Below, in pieces: positions 1,994 to 34,983 of a stretch of DNA of 64,000 bases. The notes below the pieces were generated by a model that was given only the letters and a program-made list of their open reading frames with translations, was not told where the DNA came from and searched no databases. Both the position numbers and the translations under genes were made by a program. Position 1 is the stretch's first letter, and each line of letters begins with the position of its first letter. Source of the stretch: an uncultured Bacteroidales bacterium (GTDB lineage Bacteria; Bacteroidota; Bacteroidia; Bacteroidales; Muribaculaceae); the NCBI GenBank assembly GCA_902792895.1, contig CADBBK010000014.1, positions 56,970 to 120,969 on the forward strand, read 5' to 3'.

Positions 1994-2998
1994 ATGAGTA
2001 AAAAAGCATTGACATTATTGCTGCTCTGCGCCATCCTCGCACTGCCCACGTTCGCCCAAGGACGCCGCAACGTGCGCATCAACGAGGTGATGGTGCAGCA
2101 GGACAGCACGGGCGGCAACGGCTGGGTCGAGTTCTATAACTCGTCCTACAGCTCCACTGCCGTTGAGCAGATGTTCATCACCACGCTGAGCCGCGAGGAC
2201 ATCCAGAACGTCTTTGACAAGAACAAGGGCAACAAGAAAAAGCCCAAACAGATTCTGGTTGAACTTTGCGAGGCCCAGCCCATGGATATCTATGAGATTC
2301 CCCGTGGAGATGAGCGTAACACCAAGATTGCTCCTCGCGGCCACTTCGTCATGGAGGCTGACGGCGACCCCAAGGCAGGCACGTTCCACATGCCTTTCAC
2401 CTTCAAAGAGGGTCAGGACAATTACATTGCACTGTATGACGTGAATGGTGACCTGGTCGATGACGTGACGATTCCCGCCTCGCTCAAGCCCGGCGAGACT
2501 TACGCCATCAAGGCCGAAGGACGCCTGCCGAGCGTGCTCGGCGATGGCAAGACCGAGTGGACCGTAAAAGACGGTAAGACCATCGAAACGGCTATCACCA
2601 AGGGCAACTACAACATCCGTGAGGTGAACGAGAACATCGAGGCTTTCCACATCAAGGATCCCCATGGCTACTGGATCGCTCTGCTCGCAATGTCGGTTGT
2701 GTTCATCGCCCTCGCACTGCTCTACATCTGTTTCAAGTTGTTCGGCAAGTTTGCCAGCAAGAATCTGAAGGATGATGACAAGCAGCAGGCCGCTGCTCCC
2801 GCAGTAGCCCAGGCTGCCGCAGTACCCGCTACCGGCGATGCCGACGGCGAGACAATGGCTGCTATATGCTTTGCACTGTATCAGCACCTGAACGCCCACG
2901 ACCAGGAGAGCGGCGTGTTGACGCTCACTCCCCGTGACGGTTCCACTTGGGCTTCCAGGGCTGGCCTGATGCGCGAATTACCCGTTATCAAGAAATAA
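1994..2998 (+). CDS. Secreted lamin-tail domain fused to OadG-type decarboxylase gamma subunit
   Basis: About 334 residues. A signal peptide (MSKKALTLLLLCAILALPTFAQG) is followed by a lamin-tail-like beta domain (RINEVMV...WVEFYNSS near the start, NYIALYDVNGDLVDDVTI further on). Next come one transmembrane helix (about residues 225-250, YWIALLAMSVVFIALALLY) and an OadG-like cytoplasmic tail with an Ala/Pro/Lys linker. OadG subunits anchor and assemble Na+-pumping decarboxylases. The position between the carboxyltransferase and biotin carrier genes supports that role. The periplasmic lamin-tail part is an addition relative to the 80-100 residue OadG of Proteobacteria. An in-frame ATG at 1982 is an alternative start; 1994 gives the cleaner signal peptide. 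Confidence 0.8.
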   Translation: MSKKALTLLLLCAILALPTFAQGRRNVRINEVMVQQDSTGGNGWVEFYNSSYSSTAVEQMFITTLSREDIQNVFDKNKGNKKKPKQILVELCEAQPMDIYEIPRGDERNTKIAPRGHFVMEADGDPKAGTFHMPFTFKEGQDNYIALYDVNGDLVDDVTIPASLKPGETYAIKAEGRLPSVLGDGKTEWTVKDGKTIETAITKGNYNIREVNENIEAFHIKDPHGYWIALLAMSVVFIALALLYICFKLFGKFASKNLKDDDKQQAAAPAVAQAAAVPATGDADGETMAAICFALYQHLNAHDQESGVLTLTPRDGSTWASRAGLMRELPVIKK

Positions 2999-3124
2999 TC
3001 ACTTATTCAGTTTGTAAGTTTCAAGTTGTTAATTTCAAGTATGGCTACCATTGCCTGACATCGTTTAGATAAAGGTGTCATTACTGACAACTAAAAAACC
3101 GAGAACTAAAAACTTTAAACACAA
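2999..3124 (+). repeat. Repeat-bearing spacer between oadG-like gene and biotin carrier gene
   Basis: The spacer has TAAG/TTAA units after the stop (TTTGTAAGTTTCAAG, TTGTTAATTTCAAG, a 15-16 nt period). It then has two AACTAAAAA units before the ATG. It resembles the next spacer in the operon (3557-3637) block by block, so the two spacers are related to each other although the genes they separate are not. Confidence 0.55.
3104..3116 (+). promoter_or_regulatory. Start-proximal AACTAAAAACTTT block (biotin carrier gene)
   Basis: The block AACTAAAAACTTT ends 8 nt before the ATG at 3125. The same block lies at nearly the same distance before oadB, the threonine aldolase gene and luxS. No Shine-Dalgarno sequence is present. 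A-rich upstream sequence is known to help translation in Bacteroidetes, so a translational role is a reasonable inference. Confidence 0.5.
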
Positions 3125-3556
3125 ATGAAGGAATACAAATATAAGATCAATGGTAACGAGTACAATGTTGCCGTCGATAACATTGAGGGCAACATCGCCC
3201 ATATTCAGGTCAATGGCGTCGCCTATGACGTTGAACTGCCTGAACAGCCCAAGGCCGCTCCTGCCGTGAAGCGTGTTGCCGTGAGCGACGCTCCCGCTGC
3301 CGCTCCCAAGCCTGCACGCAAGGCTGCTCCCGCTGCTGCCGGCGGTCACGTGATTGAGTCGCCGCTGCCCGGCGTCATCAAGGACATCTTTGTTAAGGTT
3401 GGCCAGCAAGTGAAGGCCGACGACGTGGTGTGCATCCTCGAGGCCATGAAGATGGGTAACGAGATCCACGCCGGCGTTGACGGTACCGTTAAGAGCATCG
3501 AGGTATCGAAGGAGGATTCGGTACTCGAGGGTAATACAATCATGGTAATCGGCTAA
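3125..3556 (+). CDS. mmdC: Biotin carboxyl carrier subunit of methylmalonyl-CoA decarboxylase
   Basis: A 143-residue carrier protein. The N-terminal 45 residues form a small beta region, followed by an Ala/Pro-rich flexible linker (about 42-72). The C-terminal biotinyl/lipoyl domain carries the biotinylation motif EAMKMGNEI, with the modified Lys at about residue 109, plus the typical SPLPGVIKDIFVKVGQQV entry. The biotin arm shuttles carboxyl groups from the carboxyltransferase (393-1961) to the membrane beta subunit (3638-4792). Length and architecture match OadA/MmdC-type carriers encoded as separate proteins. Confidence 0.93.
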   Translation: MKEYKYKINGNEYNVAVDNIEGNIAHIQVNGVAYDVELPEQPKAAPAVKRVAVSDAPAAAPKPARKAAPAAAGGHVIESPLPGVIKDIFVKVGQQVKADDVVCILEAMKMGNEIHAGVDGTVKSIEVSKEDSVLEGNTIMVIG

Positions 3557-5361: not shown

Positions 5362-5910
5362 TTATTTAACAACAAACAGGTTGAGGATTGCCGTCAGCAG
5401 CAAGGGTATGCCAAGCAGCAGTGCTGACGAAATCACGACAAACTTGGTGACCTTCTCTTTCTTGACAAACAGGTGGTCGGTTCCACGGTAGGCCATCCAT
5501 GGCAGATAGGCCATCAGGAAGAGTACCGGAGTGAAATCACTGGGCAACAGGTTGCGCAGGATGAGGAGCAACACAAGGAAAATCAGGTTATACAGGATAT
5601 AGTCGTTAAGCCTTGCGGTGGCTCCCTGTGTCTTGACTAACTCGGGATAAAAGCCGCCCAAGAGATAGACGATAATGTAATAACTGATAAAAAAGGTCGA
5701 GAACATGACAATACCGTTCATCAGCGAGGTGCTGAAGCCAATCGTCGTGTCGTAAAGCATGGGCACAAAGCATGACAATGCCAACAGTCCCAACAGCGGC
5801 TGATAGACAGAGTGAAGCACTTTACCCGTGGGGATATTGGATTCATTGATTACTTCCCACCCGTAGCGCGGGGCGGTAATCACACAAAATATGTTATGCC
5901 AGATACTCAT
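5362..5910 (-). CDS. Yip1-like integral membrane protein
   Basis: About 182 residues from the internal Met (MSIWHNIFCVITAPRYGWE), which starts with the short amphipathic Pro/Trp segment typical of bacterial Yip1-domain proteins. The ATG at 5940 would add ten residues without family support. Five hydrophobic segments follow, and a basic C-terminal loop (VKKEKVTK) precedes the last helix. No catalytic motif is visible. Assignment to Yip1/DUF1282 rests on the N-terminal segment and helix layout only. It lies just upstream of smpB on the same strand. Confidence 0.55.
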   Translation of the reverse strand: MSIWHNIFCVITAPRYGWEVINESNIPTGKVLHSVYQPLLGLLALSCFVPMLYDTTIGFSTSLMNGIVMFSTFFISYYIIVYLLGGFYPELVKTQGATARLNDYILYNLIFLVLLLILRNLLPSDFTPVLFLMAYLPWMAYRGTDHLFVKKEKVTKFVVISSALLLGIPLLLTAILNLFVVK

Positions 5911-28501: not shown

Positions 28502-30496
28502 TTACAAGGCAAGGCGCAGCCCAATGTGGACAGCGACCTCATCCGGGCCGCCATACACACGCGACGTGTTGCGGCACTCGTTTGCAGGGGTGTACCAGCT
28601 ACTGCTGCGAATCACCCTATCGGTGCCCGAGGCAGGACCCTGCGGATTCACTTGAGGCTCAGACGAATATTCACCATAAAAATCGGCACACCACTCATAG
28701 TTGTTACCACTCATGTCATAGATTCCCAACTCGTTAGGCCGCAGTTGGGCAACCCGCCGGCCATAGGAATAACAGGCATTGTCATAGTACCAAGCCACGG
28801 CATCGATATCATCACCGCCGGCATAGAGACATGCTTTGCTCTTGTTCCCGCCACGAGCCGCGAACTCCCATTCGGCCTCGGTGGGCAAACGGAACGAGCG
28901 GCCGGTCAAGGTATTTAACTTGCTGATAAAGGTCATGCAATCATTCCAGCTCACATTGGCAACGGGCAGTTCAACGCCATGCACACTGCTAGGATTGGTG
29001 CCTATCACGGCTTTCCAGAGGCCCTGCGTGACTTCGGTTTGGCCGATGTAATACGAGGACAAAGTGACACGATGCACGGGATACTCATTTTCGTAGGCAT
29101 CTTCGGGCTGTTCATCGGTAGCACCCATGTCAAACGATCCGCCGTCAACCTTGACCATCTTGAAGGTCACACCATTGACGGTAAACGACTCTCCATCAAC
29201 CTCCATTTGTCCAGAGCCGGCCAGCAGCATGTCAATCAAGTCACTGAGGTCTGAGATATCTGTCACATGGTCATTGTTCACGTCACCAATGCGGCCGGTA
29301 GCAGTGCCCGACAGCAGCAGGTCCACCAATTCGCTGACATCCGAGATGCCGATTTCGTTGTCGCCATCCACATCTGCGTAGTCACGGGCTAATCCCAGTA
29401 CTGCATACTGTCGTGTGGAATAGTTATTCCCATTGGGCGTCAAGGCCGACAGTTGCCAGTAGCTGTCATGGTTACCGCCCCACCCCCAGTTGATGTGGAA
29501 CATGCCGTTACGATAGCCGTCGAGGACAAACGCATGACCACCATTGCTGGCGTCGCTGCCCATAAAGATGATCGGACGCCCCTCGGCCAGCTCATCATAC
29601 ATCATCTGGTCCCAATCGGCATCGTTGGAGGCGTCTCGCATCCAAGTCGTGGCTGAATTGCTGTACCCGAAGTAATAGTTCATGGCAAAGGCTATCGTCT
29701 GGAAGACAGCGTTGCTCACCTGTGTGCCATAGTCCATCTCGACCGACTGGCCACAATAGCGCATCAACTGAGCCACGGCCGCGGCCTGTTCGGAGTTGTA
29801 ACTGTAATAGTTCGGGAGCATCTGGTCCCAATCAAAAGAAGTTGGCGGCAGAGCAGGCAGATTGATGCCCCGCTTGGAGGTGTAGGCAGGAATACCAAGG
29901 CATTCGGCCGATGGATAACGGTGGTAGTACATCACTTGAGCCATCGCAGTGGCCACACATCCCGTGTAGGTCGGATAATTGCCCACTTTGGGACACTGGC
30001 GATTGAAGGGTTGCGTCTGGTCCCATGCGGTCGAGAGCATGGGTGAAATCTCGTTCAAGGGCGCATCGCGGCGAGGCGCACCCGAGGCATCGGGATGTGA
30101 TTGCAGGTATTCCAGTTGTGAGCAATAACCGTCGAGCCAAGCCCGCATGTTGCAAGGCAGGGCATCGATGTCAAAATGGCCTTTCTCACTGTATCCCAAC
30201 ACCGGAATCGCTCCGTCGTCAGCCGAAACGACAACCCACCCGCCGTGGCTGTTGTCGGCAAAGACATAATATAGCGGGCTGTGATGCCTGGCATCAGCAT
30301 TGCGGGTGTAAGCCAGCGAGAGATCCACAGCCGAATTGCCGGACCGAATTGTTGATTGATTTTGCATCAAGAAATCCGTGGCAATGGCTCGAGCATCATC
30401 GGCATTGAGTGTCGCAGCCTGAATGTTCAACATGCTGCCAACAGCCATCGCAGCCACAACAAGCAGCAACGGCAGTAATCTATAGTTTATCGACAT
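28502..30496 (-). CDS. Secreted C10 (streptopain-type) protease - dockerin - SUMF-domain fusion
   Basis: 664 residues, one continuous frame. Signal peptide about 1-27; Spi/C10-type prodomain about 28-145 (YYVFADNSHGGWVVVSADD). The C10 cysteine protease covers about 150-370, with catalytic Cys180 (YTGCVATAMAQVMYYHRYP), His321 (SNGGHAFVLDGY) and WGWGG after it. Two dockerin-like repeats lie at about 375-428 (DVDGDNEIGISDVSELVDL; DVNNDHVTDISDLSDLIDM). A formylglycine-generating-enzyme (SUMF) domain covers about 445-664 (GGSFDMGATDEQ, IGQTEVTQGLWKAVIG, RLPTEAEWEFAARGG). In the C-terminal active region one Cys is kept (ECRNTSR) but the usual GGSW is SSSW and the second Cys position is not seen, so the last domain is probably non-catalytic. 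Confidence 0.9.
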   Translation of the reverse strand: MSINYRLLPLLLVVAAMAVGSMLNIQAATLNADDARAIATDFLMQNQSTIRSGNSAVDLSLAYTRNADARHHSPLYYVFADNSHGGWVVVSADDGAIPVLGYSEKGHFDIDALPCNMRAWLDGYCSQLEYLQSHPDASGAPRRDAPLNEISPMLSTAWDQTQPFNRQCPKVGNYPTYTGCVATAMAQVMYYHRYPSAECLGIPAYTSKRGINLPALPPTSFDWDQMLPNYYSYNSEQAAAVAQLMRYCGQSVEMDYGTQVSNAVFQTIAFAMNYYFGYSNSATTWMRDASNDADWDQMMYDELAEGRPIIFMGSDASNGGHAFVLDGYRNGMFHINWGWGGNHDSYWQLSALTPNGNNYSTRQYAVLGLARDYADVDGDNEIGISDVSELVDLLLSGTATGRIGDVNNDHVTDISDLSDLIDMLLAGSGQMEVDGESFTVNGVTFKMVKVDGGSFDMGATDEQPEDAYENEYPVHRVTLSSYYIGQTEVTQGLWKAVIGTNPSSVHGVELPVANVSWNDCMTFISKLNTLTGRSFRLPTEAEWEFAARGGNKSKACLYAGGDDIDAVAWYYDNACYSYGRRVAQLRPNELGIYDMSGNNYEWCADFYGEYSSEPQVNPQGPASGTDRVIRSSSWYTPANECRNTSRVYGGPDEVAVHIGLRLAL

Positions 30497-30536: not shown

Positions 30537-31577
30537 TCATTGTTTGCGGGGTATCGCGGCGATGAGGGCGGTGACGTCGTCGGGGCGGGTGGCCCAGCTA
30601 GTGACGAAGCGGCAGTTCATCAGGTCGCCCACGGGGAACCATTGCTCGAAGACGAAGTCTTTCTCCAAGCGGGTGATGGTGTCTTTGTCCAGGAGGACAA
30701 ACTGCTGATTGGTGGGTGAATTGCTGTACATCTTGTAACCCTTGGCGACGAAGGCATCACGCAAGCGCATAGCCTGCTCCACGGCATGGCGGGCAATCTT
30801 GAAGTATAGGCCGTCCTGCATCAGCGTGTCGAACTGGATGCCCAAAAGTCTGCCCTTAGCCAACAGGGCGCCGTGCTGCTTTACCGTGGTGAAGAAATGG
30901 TCGGGCGCCGGAGCATAGGGGTTGGGAAAAACCACGGCCTCACCACAAAGGGCGCCGCACTTGGTACCGCCGAGGTAAAACACATCACACAGGTCGGCCA
31001 GCTGCTCGATTGTCACATCACAGCCCTCGGCCATCAGGCCGTAACCCAGGCGCGCACCGTCGATGAACAACGGCAGATGATACTCACGACAAACGTCACT
31101 AATGGCCGTCAGTTCAGCGAGCGAGTAGATGGTGCCCATCTCGGTGGCAAAGGTGATATAGACCATACCCGGGAACACCATGTGCTCGTAGGCAATATCA
31201 GCATAGAACGCTTCGAGCCACTCTCGCAGCTCGCAAGCATCCATCTTGCCATCGTGGGAGGGCAAAGCCAGCACCTTGTGGCCTCCAAACTCGATAGCCC
31301 CTGACTCGTGGACATTGATGTGGCCGCTCTCGACGGACAACACTCCCTGATAGCCTCGCAACAAGGCATCGATGACGGTGGCATTGGTCTGGGTGCCGCC
31401 GACGAGGAAGAACACATCGGCATCGGGTTTGCAGCAGGCAGCACGGATTTTCTCCTTGGCTGCGGTGCAGTAATCATCCAGTCCGTAACCCGTCGCACGT
31501 TCGTCATTAGTCTCTATCAGGCGCTTGAGGATGGCCTCATGGCAGCCGTTATTGTAATCGCTCTCAAAGGATATCAT
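30537..31577 (-). CDS. ltaE: Low-specificity L-threonine aldolase (PLP-dependent)
   Basis: 346 residues of the aromatic-amino-acid beta-eliminating lyase/threonine aldolase fold. The reaction is threonine (or allo-threonine) to glycine plus acetaldehyde. Seen: the N-terminal SFESDYNNGCHEAIL and VFFLVGGTQTNATVIDALL (phosphate-binding region), GHINVHESGAIEFGGHKV, PLFIDGARLGYGLMA with the PLP-pairing Asp, and DVFYLGGTKCGALCGEAVVF with the Schiff-base Lys. A bacterial serine/threonine-specific variant cannot be excluded. Upstream lies copy A of a 200-bp element shared with the next gene, and an AACTAAAAACTT block 9 nt before ATG. The C10 fusion gene follows 40 bp downstream. Confidence 0.88.
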   Translation of the reverse strand: MISFESDYNNGCHEAILKRLIETNDERATGYGLDDYCTAAKEKIRAACCKPDADVFFLVGGTQTNATVIDALLRGYQGVLSVESGHINVHESGAIEFGGHKVLALPSHDGKMDACELREWLEAFYADIAYEHMVFPGMVYITFATEMGTIYSLAELTAISDVCREYHLPLFIDGARLGYGLMAEGCDVTIEQLADLCDVFYLGGTKCGALCGEAVVFPNPYAPAPDHFFTTVKQHGALLAKGRLLGIQFDTLMQDGLYFKIARHAVEQAMRLRDAFVAKGYKMYSNSPTNQQFVLLDKDTITRLEKDFVFEQWFPVGDLMNCRFVTSWATRPDDVTALIAAIPRKQ

Positions 31578-31586
31578 CTGCGTTAC

Positions 31587-31598
31587 AAGTTTTTAGTT
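31587..31598 (-). promoter_or_regulatory. Start-proximal AACTAAAAACTT block (ltaE)
   Basis: Minus-strand AACTAAAAACTT ending 9 nt before the ltaE ATG; the same block and distance as in the decarboxylase operon. Confidence 0.5.
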
Positions 31599-31607
31599 GT
31601 ACCTAAA

Positions 31608-31805
31608 TTCCGCAGCACTTCAGTTAAACATTTTTATAAGTTCCTGAGAAGCAAAAAGTTGCTCAGGACTTTTCCATGGCAGATTTTCACTTATCTTAGT
31701 GCTGCAATTCAAAACAAGCAAAATCATCAATGGCATGGCAAAAATAAGCATAAAATCTCATTAACCCACCCCATGCGGAGGAATTTTTCACGAAATGGAG
31801 AAATT
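31608..31805 (-). repeat. 200-bp element, copy A (candidate structured leader of ltaE)
   Basis: By eye about 90% identical to 33060-33257 in the same orientation. On the minus strand, in order: a -7-like TATTTTTG (31739-31746), the 5' half of a closing stem GCAGCACT (31698-31705), a hairpin with outer stem TCCTGAG/CTCAGGA (31642-31668), and the 3' half AGTGCTGC (31612-31619). It ends 30 nt before the ltaE start. It may be a structured 5' leader or a small repeat element carrying a promoter. Confidence 0.75.
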
Positions 31806-31913
31806 ACAACCTTAGGGTCGGTAAGGAACGGATAATCATTAATTCGGGGTATTCACCCTTTCTTTTTCTAGATTATCACTCTATTACTCGATAAACGAAC
31901 GGGAGATGGAGCT

Positions 31914-33011
31914 TCAGTCGTTCAGTCTCACCTTTCTCCATTCCGGCTTTATTTGGACAGGTTGGCCCAATGACTTGATTTTCTCACGGGCGGTATCTTC
32001 GTCCATGTCCTCCCAACCCTCTACCGTGATTCTCGACCGTCCGTCAGCACCCACCTTGGCAGGATATTCGGTTATCATCTGCAACACATAGCCATCCTTG
32101 AGGAAAGCATAACTGGTGTATTCATAGATTTCCGCCTCAGTCACCACCACATTCGGATAGAAGCTCAACTTATGATAGCTGATGGGGTTGTTGATGCCGA
32201 TCAGTTCGATGTCGCCCTTGTAGGGGGCGATGGCCAGCATACCCTCTTCTTCCTCGTCGCTCAACAGGTAAAAATAGTCTTCCTGTCCAGGAAGGGTTAT
32301 GAGAGCAATCTTGGTCATCTCGACAAGATAATCCGTCTCTTTTGTGTTGAACCAGCGATACCCGTACTTTAGGTCATCGATGCTAATGTGCGAGAAGTGA
32401 TGCTTGTTGCCATCCCAGGAGAAGACGTGGTTGATATTGCTTTGAAGGTTGAAGTCGTATTCGCTAATGATGAAATCCTTTCCCTTTTTGGGCAGGTTGT
32501 AGCTGACGTGGTTGTCCTCATTGAGAGGGTGAAACTCTTGCTCTAGCCATGCCTCAGGGTACAAGGTGAAGGTCTTGGGGTCGTAGTCGTAGAAGCATAC
32601 GAACTCTATCTCCGGATCAACGGGCTGGCCCAGGACGATGGCAAATAGCCGGTGTCCGTTGTCACGACGCCACACACAAGCCTCCATGTAGCCGCTGTCA
32701 GAGCCACCACTGTCCAGACTCACAAATCCGTTTTTGCGGTCTACAGTGATGCCCCCTCCATACTCCTCATCGGCTTCAAAGGTGAAGTTGGGGTTCTTGG
32801 CTTTCTCTAATACAGGGCTGATGATATAGGCGTGCCAAGTGTCCTGGAATGCCTTGAGCAACTGCACAATTCCTGGGTTGTTGCCCTCCTGGGGCACTTT
32901 GATGTTGCGTATCGTCCATTGGTCGCGTATTTCTTCCAATGAATGATATTCGGTGGCCAACGCATATAGGCTGGTTGTCACAGCCAAAAGAAGCAATAGA
33001 GATTTTTTCAT
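31914..33011 (-). CDS. Secreted protein of unknown function
   Basis: 365 residues with signal peptide MKKSLLLLLAVTTSLYALA. The mature part is rich in aromatic and acidic residues, has no transmembrane helix and no motif I can assign. Notable stretches are GGGITVDRKNGFVSLDSGGSDSGYMEACVWRR, a run DEEEEG near 250 and a C-terminal basic-charged end. It could be a beta-sandwich or propeller-like periplasmic protein; I do not recognise a family. Its upstream region carries copy B of the 200-bp element also found before ltaE, so the two genes may share regulation. Confidence 0.75.
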   Translation of the reverse strand: MKKSLLLLLAVTTSLYALATEYHSLEEIRDQWTIRNIKVPQEGNNPGIVQLLKAFQDTWHAYIISPVLEKAKNPNFTFEADEEYGGGITVDRKNGFVSLDSGGSDSGYMEACVWRRDNGHRLFAIVLGQPVDPEIEFVCFYDYDPKTFTLYPEAWLEQEFHPLNEDNHVSYNLPKKGKDFIISEYDFNLQSNINHVFSWDGNKHHFSHISIDDLKYGYRWFNTKETDYLVEMTKIALITLPGQEDYFYLLSDEEEEGMLAIAPYKGDIELIGINNPISYHKLSFYPNVVVTEAEIYEYTSYAFLKDGYVLQMITEYPAKVGADGRSRITVEGWEDMDEDTAREKIKSLGQPVQIKPEWRKVRLND

Positions 33012-33059
33012 AAACTTTCTTTTTTTAGTTACAAAGAAGCATTTCTATTCTCCCAAAAA

Positions 33060-33257
33060 TCCGCAGCACTTTAGTTAAACATTTTTATAAGTTACTGAGC
33101 AACAAAAAGTTGCTCTAGATACTGCCATGTCAGATTTTTGACTTATCTTAGTGCTGCAATTCAAAACAAGCAAAATCATCAATGGCATGGCAAAAATAAG
33201 CATAAAATCTCATTAACTCACACCATTCGGTGGAATTTTTCGCGTGATGGAGAAATT
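33060..33257 (-). repeat. 200-bp element, copy B (candidate structured leader of the secreted-protein gene)
   Basis: Direct repeat of 31608-31805. Minus-strand features in order: -7-like TATTTTTG (33191-33198), GCAGCACT (33150-33157), perfect hairpin GAGCAAC-TTTTT-GTTGCTC (33097-33115), AGTGCTGC (33063-33070). The 8-bp closing stem is identical in both copies. The inner hairpin is kept in form, but its paired bases differ from copy A. It ends 48 nt before the ATG at 33011. Confidence 0.75.
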
Positions 33258-33303
33258 TGACAAACTCCTCACTCCAAACTCTTAACTTCTAACTAAAAAA
33301 CAC

Positions 33304-33311
33304 TATCTTTG
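33304..33311 (+). promoter_or_regulatory. -7 box TATCTTTG 4 nt from the GH13 start codon
   Basis: The ATG (33316) begins 5 nt after the end of the -7 box, where transcription normally starts, implying a leaderless mRNA. Confidence 0.6.
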
Positions 33312-33315
33312 CAGT

Positions 33316-34983
33316 ATGAATCATCAGAAAAAAGTCATTATCTATCAGTTGATGCCCCGATGGTACACCAACTGCAACGATCATTGTGTCAAGAACGGTA
33401 GCATCAGGCAGAACGGCTGCGGTAAGTTCAATGAGATTGACCTGACTAAACTGCGGTCCATCAAGTCAATGGGTGTTACCCACGTGTGGTACACGGGCAT
33501 CATCGAGCATGCCACGGCCACCAACTATTCCCGCCAGGGCATCAAACCGTGCAATCCCCATGTGGTGAAAGGCAAAGCGGGGTCACCCTATGCCATCCGC
33601 GACTACTACGACGTGTGCCCCGATATGGCAATGAAAGTAAAGGACCGCATGGCGGAGTTTGAGGCGCTGATTGACCGCACCCACCGCGCTGGTCTCAAGG
33701 TCATCATCGACTTCGTGCCCAACCATGTGGCACGCGAATACGCAAGCGACGCAAAAAACGCAAAAATAAAAGATCTGGGTGAGGGCGACAACCAAGAGAA
33801 ATTCTTTGACCCGCAGAACAATTTCTATTATCTCACAGGGCAGCGTTTCGCACCGAGGGATGTGGATTTGGGACAAGGCGACGATGCCTATGACGAATAT
33901 CCTGCCCGCGCAACAGGCAACGACTGCTATAGTGCGTCGCCGAGCCGCAACGACTGGTATGAAACCGTGAAACTCAACTACGGCATTGACCCGTGGAACG
34001 GCAGCACCCACTTCGACCCTGTGCCATCGACCTGGACGCGCATGCTCGACATCCTGCAGTTCTGGGCTGACAAGGGCATTGACGGGTTCCGCTGCGACAT
34101 GGCGCACATGGTGCCGGTAGCATTCTGGCAGTGGGCTATCAGACAAGTCAAATCGTCCCACCCCGGCATCTGCTTTATTGCCGAGATCTATGACGTGGGG
34201 CTTTATCATAGTTATGTGTACGAGGGTGGCTTTGACTACCTGTATGACAAAGTGACGCTCTACGACACGCTGATGGGCATCCTGCGGAACGGTTGGCCGG
34301 CAAGTGAACTGACGCGTTGCTGGCAGACCGTCGAATTTATCGCGGGGCACACCCTCAATTTCCTTGAGAATCACGATGAGCCGCGCCTGGCATCGCCCTT
34401 GTGGTACGGTGACGCTTTCAAAGCACTGCCCGCACTGGTGGTGAGCGCCACGATGACATCGGGGCCGTTTATGTTCTATGCCGGGCAAGAGTTGGGTGAG
34501 CCAGCCACTGATGCCGAGGGGTATAGCGGTTTAGACGGCCGCACGACCATATTCGACTACTGGAGCGTGCCCTCGTTGCGCCGCTGGCACCAAGGAAAAC
34601 CGACCAGCGACGAGCGCCGCCTGCGTGCGCTGTACCGCAAGATCCTGCGACTCGCTGCAAGCGAGCCGACGCTGGCCCAAGGGCAGTTCTATGACCTGAT
34701 GTATGTCAACCAGGACACGCTCGACACGAGGTATCACTACGCCTACCTGCGCCACTGCGACGGCCAGATGACGCTGGTGGTGGCCAACTTCGGTGACCAC
34801 GAAGCCGATATCAACGTACTCGTTCCCCAGCATGCCCTCGACTGTGCAAAGCTGCCTCATGGCACCTATCGCTGCCATCAGCACCTCACAGGAGCTGAGA
34901 CCGAGGTCAAATTGTCGGCCGATACCACCCTACCCGTCCACGTGGCCCCGCACAACGCCGTTATCCTCACCATCAATTGTTAG
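33316..34983 (+). CDS. GH13 alpha-amylase-family glycosidase (cytoplasmic)
   Basis: 555 residues, no signal peptide. The family hydrolyses or transfers alpha-glucosidic bonds. The four GH13 regions are present: DFVPNHVA (about 132-139), GIDGFRCDMAHMVP with nucleophile Asp261, FIAEIYD with acid/base Glu290, and FLENHDEPR with Asp354. A C-terminal beta domain ends the protein. Maltodextrin or trehalose-related activity cannot be told apart by eye. Residues about 142-153 (YASDAKNAKIKD) are encoded by an A-rich ACGCAAAAA repeat unlike the GC-rich surroundings and lie just after region I, so they look like an in-frame insertion. It is followed by TTAG/CTAA repeats. Confidence 0.9.
   Translation: MNHQKKVIIYQLMPRWYTNCNDHCVKNGSIRQNGCGKFNEIDLTKLRSIKSMGVTHVWYTGIIEHATATNYSRQGIKPCNPHVVKGKAGSPYAIRDYYDVCPDMAMKVKDRMAEFEALIDRTHRAGLKVIIDFVPNHVAREYASDAKNAKIKDLGEGDNQEKFFDPQNNFYYLTGQRFAPRDVDLGQGDDAYDEYPARATGNDCYSASPSRNDWYETVKLNYGIDPWNGSTHFDPVPSTWTRMLDILQFWADKGIDGFRCDMAHMVPVAFWQWAIRQVKSSHPGICFIAEIYDVGLYHSYVYEGGFDYLYDKVTLYDTLMGILRNGWPASELTRCWQTVEFIAGHTLNFLENHDEPRLASPLWYGDAFKALPALVVSATMTSGPFMFYAGQELGEPATDAEGYSGLDGRTTIFDYWSVPSLRRWHQGKPTSDERRLRALYRKILRLAASEPTLAQGQFYDLMYVNQDTLDTRYHYAYLRHCDGQMTLVVANFGDHEADINVLVPQHALDCAKLPHGTYRCHQHLTGAETEVKLSADTTLPVHVAPHNAVILTINC
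33741..33770 (+). repeat. ACGCAAAAA-type repeat inside the GH13 coding sequence
   Basis: CGCAAGCGACGCAAAAAACG and the following CAAAAATAAA resemble the hairpin arm at 23861-23877 (shared word ACGCAAAAAACG). The frame is kept. Confidence 0.5.

Follow-up and report, generated by a model that had tools for sequence, protein, structure and literature searches.

Two copies of a repeat upstream of two minus-strand genes

The window, i.e. the whole stretch of 64,000 nt that was analyzed, contains two minus-strand genes that are each preceded by a copy of one repeat. The first gene (30537-31577) encodes a PLP-dependent aldolase (PF01212) that is threonine-aldolase-like, and the second (31914-33011) encodes a protein that was judged by eye from its N-terminus to be secreted and that had no match in Pfam or NCBIfam. 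Another secreted protein, with a Spi inhibitor domain, a C10 peptidase domain and a formylglycine-generating-enzyme-like domain, is encoded at 28502-30496. Copy 1 of the repeat (31608-31805, minus strand) is directed toward the aldolase gene and copy 2 (33060-33261, minus strand) toward the gene of the first-named secreted protein. Both copies align to full-length insertion sequences of the IS612/IS942/IS613 type, and in copy 2 this homology extends 4 nt beyond position 33257, possibly to about 33282.

A first-pass annotation had described 31608-31805 and 33060-33257 as about 90% identical and equally oriented, and this was verified (21 of 199 alignment columns differ), as was the distance of 30 and 48 nt to the minus-strand starts at 31577 and 33011. 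The -7-like motif that it had reported, TATTTTTG, is present in both copies at plus-strand positions 31739-31746 and 33191-33198. The two arms of its closing stem were also located. The stem spans 31612-31705 in copy 1, with the arms 31698-31705 (GCAGCACT) and 31612-31619 (AGTGCTGC) on the transcribed minus strand, and 33063-33157 in copy 2, with the arms 33150-33157 and 33063-33070. A 27-nt core of the repeat occurred twice in the window versus zero occurrences expected by chance, and a search of the window genome yielded only the two copies, the next best match having an E-value of 0.3. The differences between the copies are clustered, leaving an identical run of 77 nt from the promoter through the 5' stem arm (31689-31765 and 33141-33217); only 10 of 20,000 random placements of the differences yielded a run of this length. 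This identity could reflect recombination between the copies instead of selection.

On the plus strand, both copies carry the dead start of a transposase gene, which reads MAKISIKSH and has a stop at codon 10 (31735-31805 in copy 1, 33187-33257 in copy 2). No transposase sequence beyond about codon 24 was found beside copy 1. An intact transposase gene was not found in the draft genome either, and the sole transposase match was the fragment at the repeat locus. Because this genome is a draft of 58 contigs with 96% completeness, a full copy of the insertion sequence could have dropped out of the assembly.

The repeat as the left end of an IS1380 element

Judged by sequence similarity, the repeats are the transposase-start (left) ends of an element of the IS1380 family, namely of the IS612/IS942/IS613 group. 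A promoter-carrying small repeat, which the first-pass annotation had offered as its alternative, was thus the right class. A sensitive DNA search of plasmids yielded 22 records from Bacteroides, Phocaeicola and Segatella, in which the match lies on the transposase-start side of IS1380 elements. Seventeen of them cover at least 80% of the 198-nt query, and the left-end identity in these listed records is 72-81%. Among the matches listed, an IS1380 transposase is annotated beneath the match in 13 of 20 cases (IS612, IS612B, IS613, IS942, ISBf12 or unnamed); the remaining ones are annotated as hypothetical protein, have nothing at this position or are devoid of annotation. A search of phage records gave five matches, all unannotated, and these records (H21-H25) are faecal "Bacteriophage sp." entries with an IS1380 end.

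Four complete elements (L040, L041, L043, L044) were aligned with the repeat. It was revealed that the repeat starts at the IS terminus and that its inner limit lies about 24 codons into the transposase gene on the opposite strand; a further record, L042, is a truncated IS copy. The transposases of full-length relatives match the IS1380 model NF033539 with 312 bits (L012, from the genus of the window) and 361 bits (L041, from Segatella), the cut-off being 180. The outer terminus TCCGCAGCACTT was found in both window copies. They share with the IS612/IS613/IS942 group the left end over the full 198 nt, the terminus TCCGCAnCACT, an outward TAnnTTTG box in the matching place and the outward orientation before a gene. 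In contrast to these complete elements with a transposase, the window copies are left ends with nothing but a dead transposase start. With about 24 codons and a stop at codon 10 they do not encode an IS1380-type transposase, and they are fragments of IS1380 elements, not members of the family themselves.

Many genomes of the genus have a match to this end: an E-value of 1e-6 or better was reached in 48 of 101. With at most 7 candidates scored per genome, the listed matches occupy at least about 110 places. A classification by script covered 72 distinct copies, among them both window copies and those of five plasmid records. Copies with identical last 90 nt were counted once, and three matches with E-values from 0.003 to 0.005 (L028, L029, L036) were excluded. 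Solo ends were defined by the absence of a long transposase match and the presence of at least 300 bp of inner DNA. The first downstream open reading frame was oriented outward in 33 of 35 solo ends and away in two, but seven of the 35 belong to one orthologous set and are therefore not independent. For copies with a long transposase the numbers were 13 outward, one away and one without a reading frame (n = 15), for copies at a contig edge 12 outward and six away (n = 18), and for copies near an edge two and two (n = 4). The counts are unadjusted for one copy (L221) that the script scored as away, although an outward start can be read there. In the single-contig genome G085 the first reading frame reads outward at nine of ten left ends, and an eleventh, 70-nt fragment (L272) faces the opposite way. 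The outward bias is a property of the element as found and not of solo ends alone, and therefore orientation by itself does not show recruitment by host genes. It was dropped as a proof.

G085, which belongs to the genus, contains eight near-identical and two 90%-identical left ends (L262-L273). One of them is interrupted by inserted DNA, the 315-aa open reading frame of which looked by eye like another transposase. In L192, two IS1380 ends (1553-1736 and 2957-3162) lie about 1.2 kb apart in convergent orientation with coding sequence between them.

A short repeat with an IS end might also be a miniature, MITE-like IS1380 derivative that is still mobile when transposase is supplied. An IS-type second terminus, ATCCGCAACTT, is present in L136 at position 5690, about 55 bp past the inner boundary, and several solo ends stop near codons 20-30, both of which speak for such a derivative. 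However, solo ends differ widely in their inner boundaries, inspection by eye revealed no second terminus at the inner side of either window copy, and the genome had only two copies and no transposase that could be found. The window copies are one-ended and just two in number, while a MITE has two inverted termini, no coding capacity and several copies; this reading is not supported for them and is highly improbable. The region from about 5690 to 5745 in L136 may itself be a two-ended miniature IS1380 derivative.

A conserved end in 15 genomes and the closing stem

An IS1380 end was also found upstream of an orthologous gene for a 397-aa secreted protein without a Pfam family, namely in 15 of 16 orthologs with at least 79% identity (L232-L247). 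The single exception, L237, has another TAnnTTTG box (TATCTTTG) instead. The 30 loci listed also include 14 orthologs of greater distance, none of which had a match to the IS end, although one of these 14 (L249) had no upstream sequence. Among the 16 loci, 14 have one downstream gene family in common and 12 have one upstream family in common; L236 has neither. The 15 leaders were aligned (alignment A2), and the mean pairwise identity was 0.91 for the -7 box, 0.87 for the leader up to the stem, and 0.93 and 0.95 for the two stem arms. Identity was 0.74 upstream of the -7 box, 0.39 in the loop and 0.57 at fourfold-degenerate sites of the 397-aa gene. The -7 box, the 5' leader and both arms are thus conserved far above fourfold-degenerate sites, and this conservation is strong, with pairing as a possible reason. 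The distance spanned by the arms is 72-113 nt, the end of the 3' arm lies 12-16 nt ahead of the start codon, and the inner hairpin appeared by eye to be degraded or absent. In 15 of the 16 genomes, the 397-aa gene has a fixed IS1380 end as its predicted promoter and leader.

The wider IS group was analyzed with an alignment of 43 of 44 end sequences (A1); L138 was excluded, as it has an insertion in the hairpin. In A1, 97.1% of the cells of the closing stem are paired, and the fourth pair occurs as G-C (23), A-U (10), C-G (6), G-U (3) and unpaired (1). At hairpin pair 125/139, C-G was found 36 times, G-C four times, and A-U, U-A and unpaired once each. The first-pass annotation had proposed a test for covariation, and the result was divided. 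Over both helices, 26 cells were changed on both sides versus a mean of 7.1 in shuffled alignments, none of 500 shuffles reached 26, and slid controls gave 3-10. The number of pairs with a change on both sides was five, which was reached by 97 of 500 shuffles, and the slid controls gave 3-7. The relatedness of the A1 sequences inflates such covariation counts. A possible further helix near the promoter had a covariation score that was reached by 58 of 500 shuffles, and RNAalifold alone predicted the closing stem only. The closing stem is genuine in the IS group, where it and the hairpin covary by the count of cells. In the 15 leaders of A2, 97.5% of the stem cells pair; one cell was changed on both sides, a value reached by 43 of 500 shuffles.

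The inner hairpin had been interpreted differently. Its paired bases (TCCTGAG/CTCAGGA versus GAGCAAC/GTTGCTC) had been described as differing between the copies but still pairing. At this place, full-length relatives have a single stem of 10-11 bp, namely TCCTGAGCAAC/GTTGCTCAGGA or a similar sequence. The outer half (31642-31668, minus strand) is retained in copy 1 and the inner half (33097-33115, minus strand) in copy 2, so the two hairpins do not represent identical base pairs that changed in a coordinated manner. Compared with the intact relatives, they are remnants of a single ancestral stem whose decay affected a different half in each copy, and compensatory change was rejected.

The idea that a structured leader, either a riboswitch or a protein-binding element, co-regulates the two window genes has to be weighed against an origin of the stem in the insertion sequence. 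The covariation in the wider group and the conservation of the stem arms and the 5' leader in the 15 genomes speak for such a leader. Yet the stem belongs to the IS and is also present in full-length copies before different genes, and a listing of downstream genes, which had likewise been suggested, revealed that copies elsewhere precede many different genes. Rfam gave no match at the gathering score in the window and none at E-values up to 1 in the region 31560-33320. Moreover, the window leaders did not fold significantly better than shuffled sequences on the transcribed strand (z -1.4 for copy 1 and -1.0 for copy 2), and the minimum-energy fold contains the closing stem in copy 1 and lacks it in copy 2. 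The five pairs with changes on both sides were matched by shuffles and exceeded by some slid controls, and the inner hairpin differences are explained by decay. A riboswitch was rejected on the basis of the missing Rfam match, the variety of downstream genes and the folding results, and a structured leader, riboswitch-like or protein-bound, that co-regulates the two genes is very unlikely. What stood of the earlier proposal is the covariation of the closing stem in the IS group and the conservation of its arms in the 15 genomes.

Further folding results concern the two strands. The transposase-sense strand of the window copies folds more strongly (z -2.0 for copy 1 and -3.3 for copy 2), a full-length IS end (L174) has a z-score of -3.6 on the outward strand, and two A2 leaders folded no better than shuffles. 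Neither the counts of wobble pairs nor folding singled out the RNA of one strand as structured. A leader peptide was also considered and discarded, as no reading frame looked conserved by eye.

Outward promoters and the origin of the arrangement

The promoter consensus given in PMC6927303 is TAnnTTTG at -7 and TG, TTG or TGTG at -33. The outward -7 box TATTTTTG of both window copies, read on the minus strand, fits TAnnTTTG and has a TG about 20 nt upstream, so the copies fit the outward promoter of IS612/IS942-type elements, although a TG is too short to weigh much. The -33 side is weak, with the TG only, and reads TTAATGA in the window copies versus TTTCTCA in many relatives. IS612, IS613, IS614, IS942 and others activate cfiA, and activation of the adjoining gene has been described for IS612, IS613, IS942 and other members of the group (PMC9330008).

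The comparison with related genomes bears on the aldolase gene. The gene is present in 56 of 60 relatives, and the best 29 of the 56 loci (L077-L105) were compared. An amylase gene adjoins it divergently in 26 of the 29, with a spacer of 68-221 nt; in the other three it was not found within the stretch. All 26 aldolase-amylase spacers of the genus have TAnnTTTG on both strands. In the window, the amylase-side box TATCTTTG of this ancestral divergent spacer is retained (33304-33311, plus strand). On the aldolase strand, no TAnnTTTG was found in what remains of the spacer (31578-31607 and 33258-33315), and the sole such box in 31578-31900 is that of copy 1. Because the native aldolase box is absent here, the IS end lies in its place and all 26 related spacers have the box, the simplest account and best reading is that the IS end probably replaced the native promoter of the aldolase gene.

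This bears on the alternative that the two truncated ends are inert debris without a present role. The transposase frame is dead in both copies, the inner hairpins have decayed, and the end is widespread in nearly half of the genomes of the genus, all of which would be in line with debris. On the other hand, the aldolase has lost its native -7 box while the -7 box of the IS is intact, the identical run between the copies spans the promoter and the start of the leader, and the orthologous end before another gene was retained in nearly all genomes of that set. Inert debris is therefore unlikely. The two IS1380 solo ends most likely act as promoters of the two genes, and the joint explanation that accounts best for the sequence comparisons, namely that transposase-less IS1380 left ends were recruited as promoters of both genes, is very probable.

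According to this recruitment model, each copy would retain the outward promoter of the IS, with the -7 box opposite the start codon of the transposase. RNA polymerase would begin transcription of the minus strand near 31735 and 33187. The transcripts would first cover a leader of about 125 nt, delimited by the IS terminus, and would then extend across the terminus into the aldolase and secreted-protein genes, which may depend on the IS ends. The arrival of copy 1 would have accompanied the loss of the aldolase's own promoter.

A comparable outward promoter is pOUT of IS10, which is located at the transposase-start end. Its RNA is able to form a stem and is antisense to the leader of the transposase. 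The element in the window is alike in having an outward promoter at this end and a possible stem-forming RNA; IS10 belongs to a different IS family, and an antisense role is putative here. It is tempting to speculate that the left end of the IS1380 group combines promoter and leader in a portable unit, with both the promoter and an RNA stem working. In the IS, its RNA might cover the start of the transposase gene as an antisense or insulating transcript, and when stranded before host genes it might become a conserved leader, the closing stem of which tunes translation in the set of 15 genomes and possibly in the window. This extended version is tentative and less probable than not.

Outward promoters of insertion sequences are known mostly from recent insertions that activate resistance genes under drug selection. 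The window resembles the IS-activated resistance genes of B. fragilis, where an outward promoter in the IS end switches the gene on (PMC9330008; PMC6927303). It differs from them in its targets, an aldolase and a secreted protein, and in the lack of an IS body, and the domesticated arrangement is common to 15 genomes of different species. Conserved solo IS ends were not described in the article titles and abstract openings that were searched, a body of text with most subscription journals outside its coverage. While the class of element is already known, a transposase-less end that is kept as a conserved leader may be new, and the new part would be the loss of a native promoter together with a sister end that 15 genomes have retained over a long time. 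In this rumen-type bacterium a metabolic gene seems to have exchanged its native promoter for an IS end, and with the sister end kept before another gene, the conversion of IS ends into permanent regulatory components of gut bacteria becomes something that can be counted. A further lesson is that a structured leader that recurs before several genes need not be a riboswitch and can be debris of an IS.

A scan of genome contigs yielded 35 loci with relatives of the secreted-protein gene, and the context of the window was compared with that of nine loci with at least 70% identity (L136-L143, L146). Within the stretches compared, pairwise comparison of the ten contexts at an E-value of 1e-10 revealed no further gene family in common. 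In nearly all pairs, DNA homology ends at most 41 nt upstream of the start codon and about 20 nt from the stop codon. Only L142 and L146, with 105 nt in common upstream, and pairs with a common IS end deviate from this. The gene has a different context in each of the ten genomes and appears to wander without visible mobility genes. The IS end lies immediately before it in three of the ten (window, L136 and, diverged, L138), and in L142 it lies 2.5 kb upstream, ahead of another gene. The gene may keep a remnant of its own promoter, as TGCTTCTTTG (plus-strand positions 33032-33041) is a possible trace that no longer fits TAnnTTTG.

The end in L136 shares 84% identity with copy 2 and 82% with copy 1 and has, by eye, a different early stop in the transposase frame, at codon 9, so the two copies are closer to each other than to this end. 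A matching IS end with an identical junction before the secreted-protein gene was found at another locus in another species (G061, L047, contained in L136), and in the window genome rpsL and aat, which flank that site, are 1.2 kb apart with no secreted-protein gene between them. Because of this identical junction elsewhere, copy 2 probably arrived together with the secreted-protein gene. The codon-10 stop is common to both copies, and therefore the duplication that gave rise to copy 1 probably postdates the death of the transposase. As a candidate route for the duplication, a circle joining a resident IS end would yield direct repeats.
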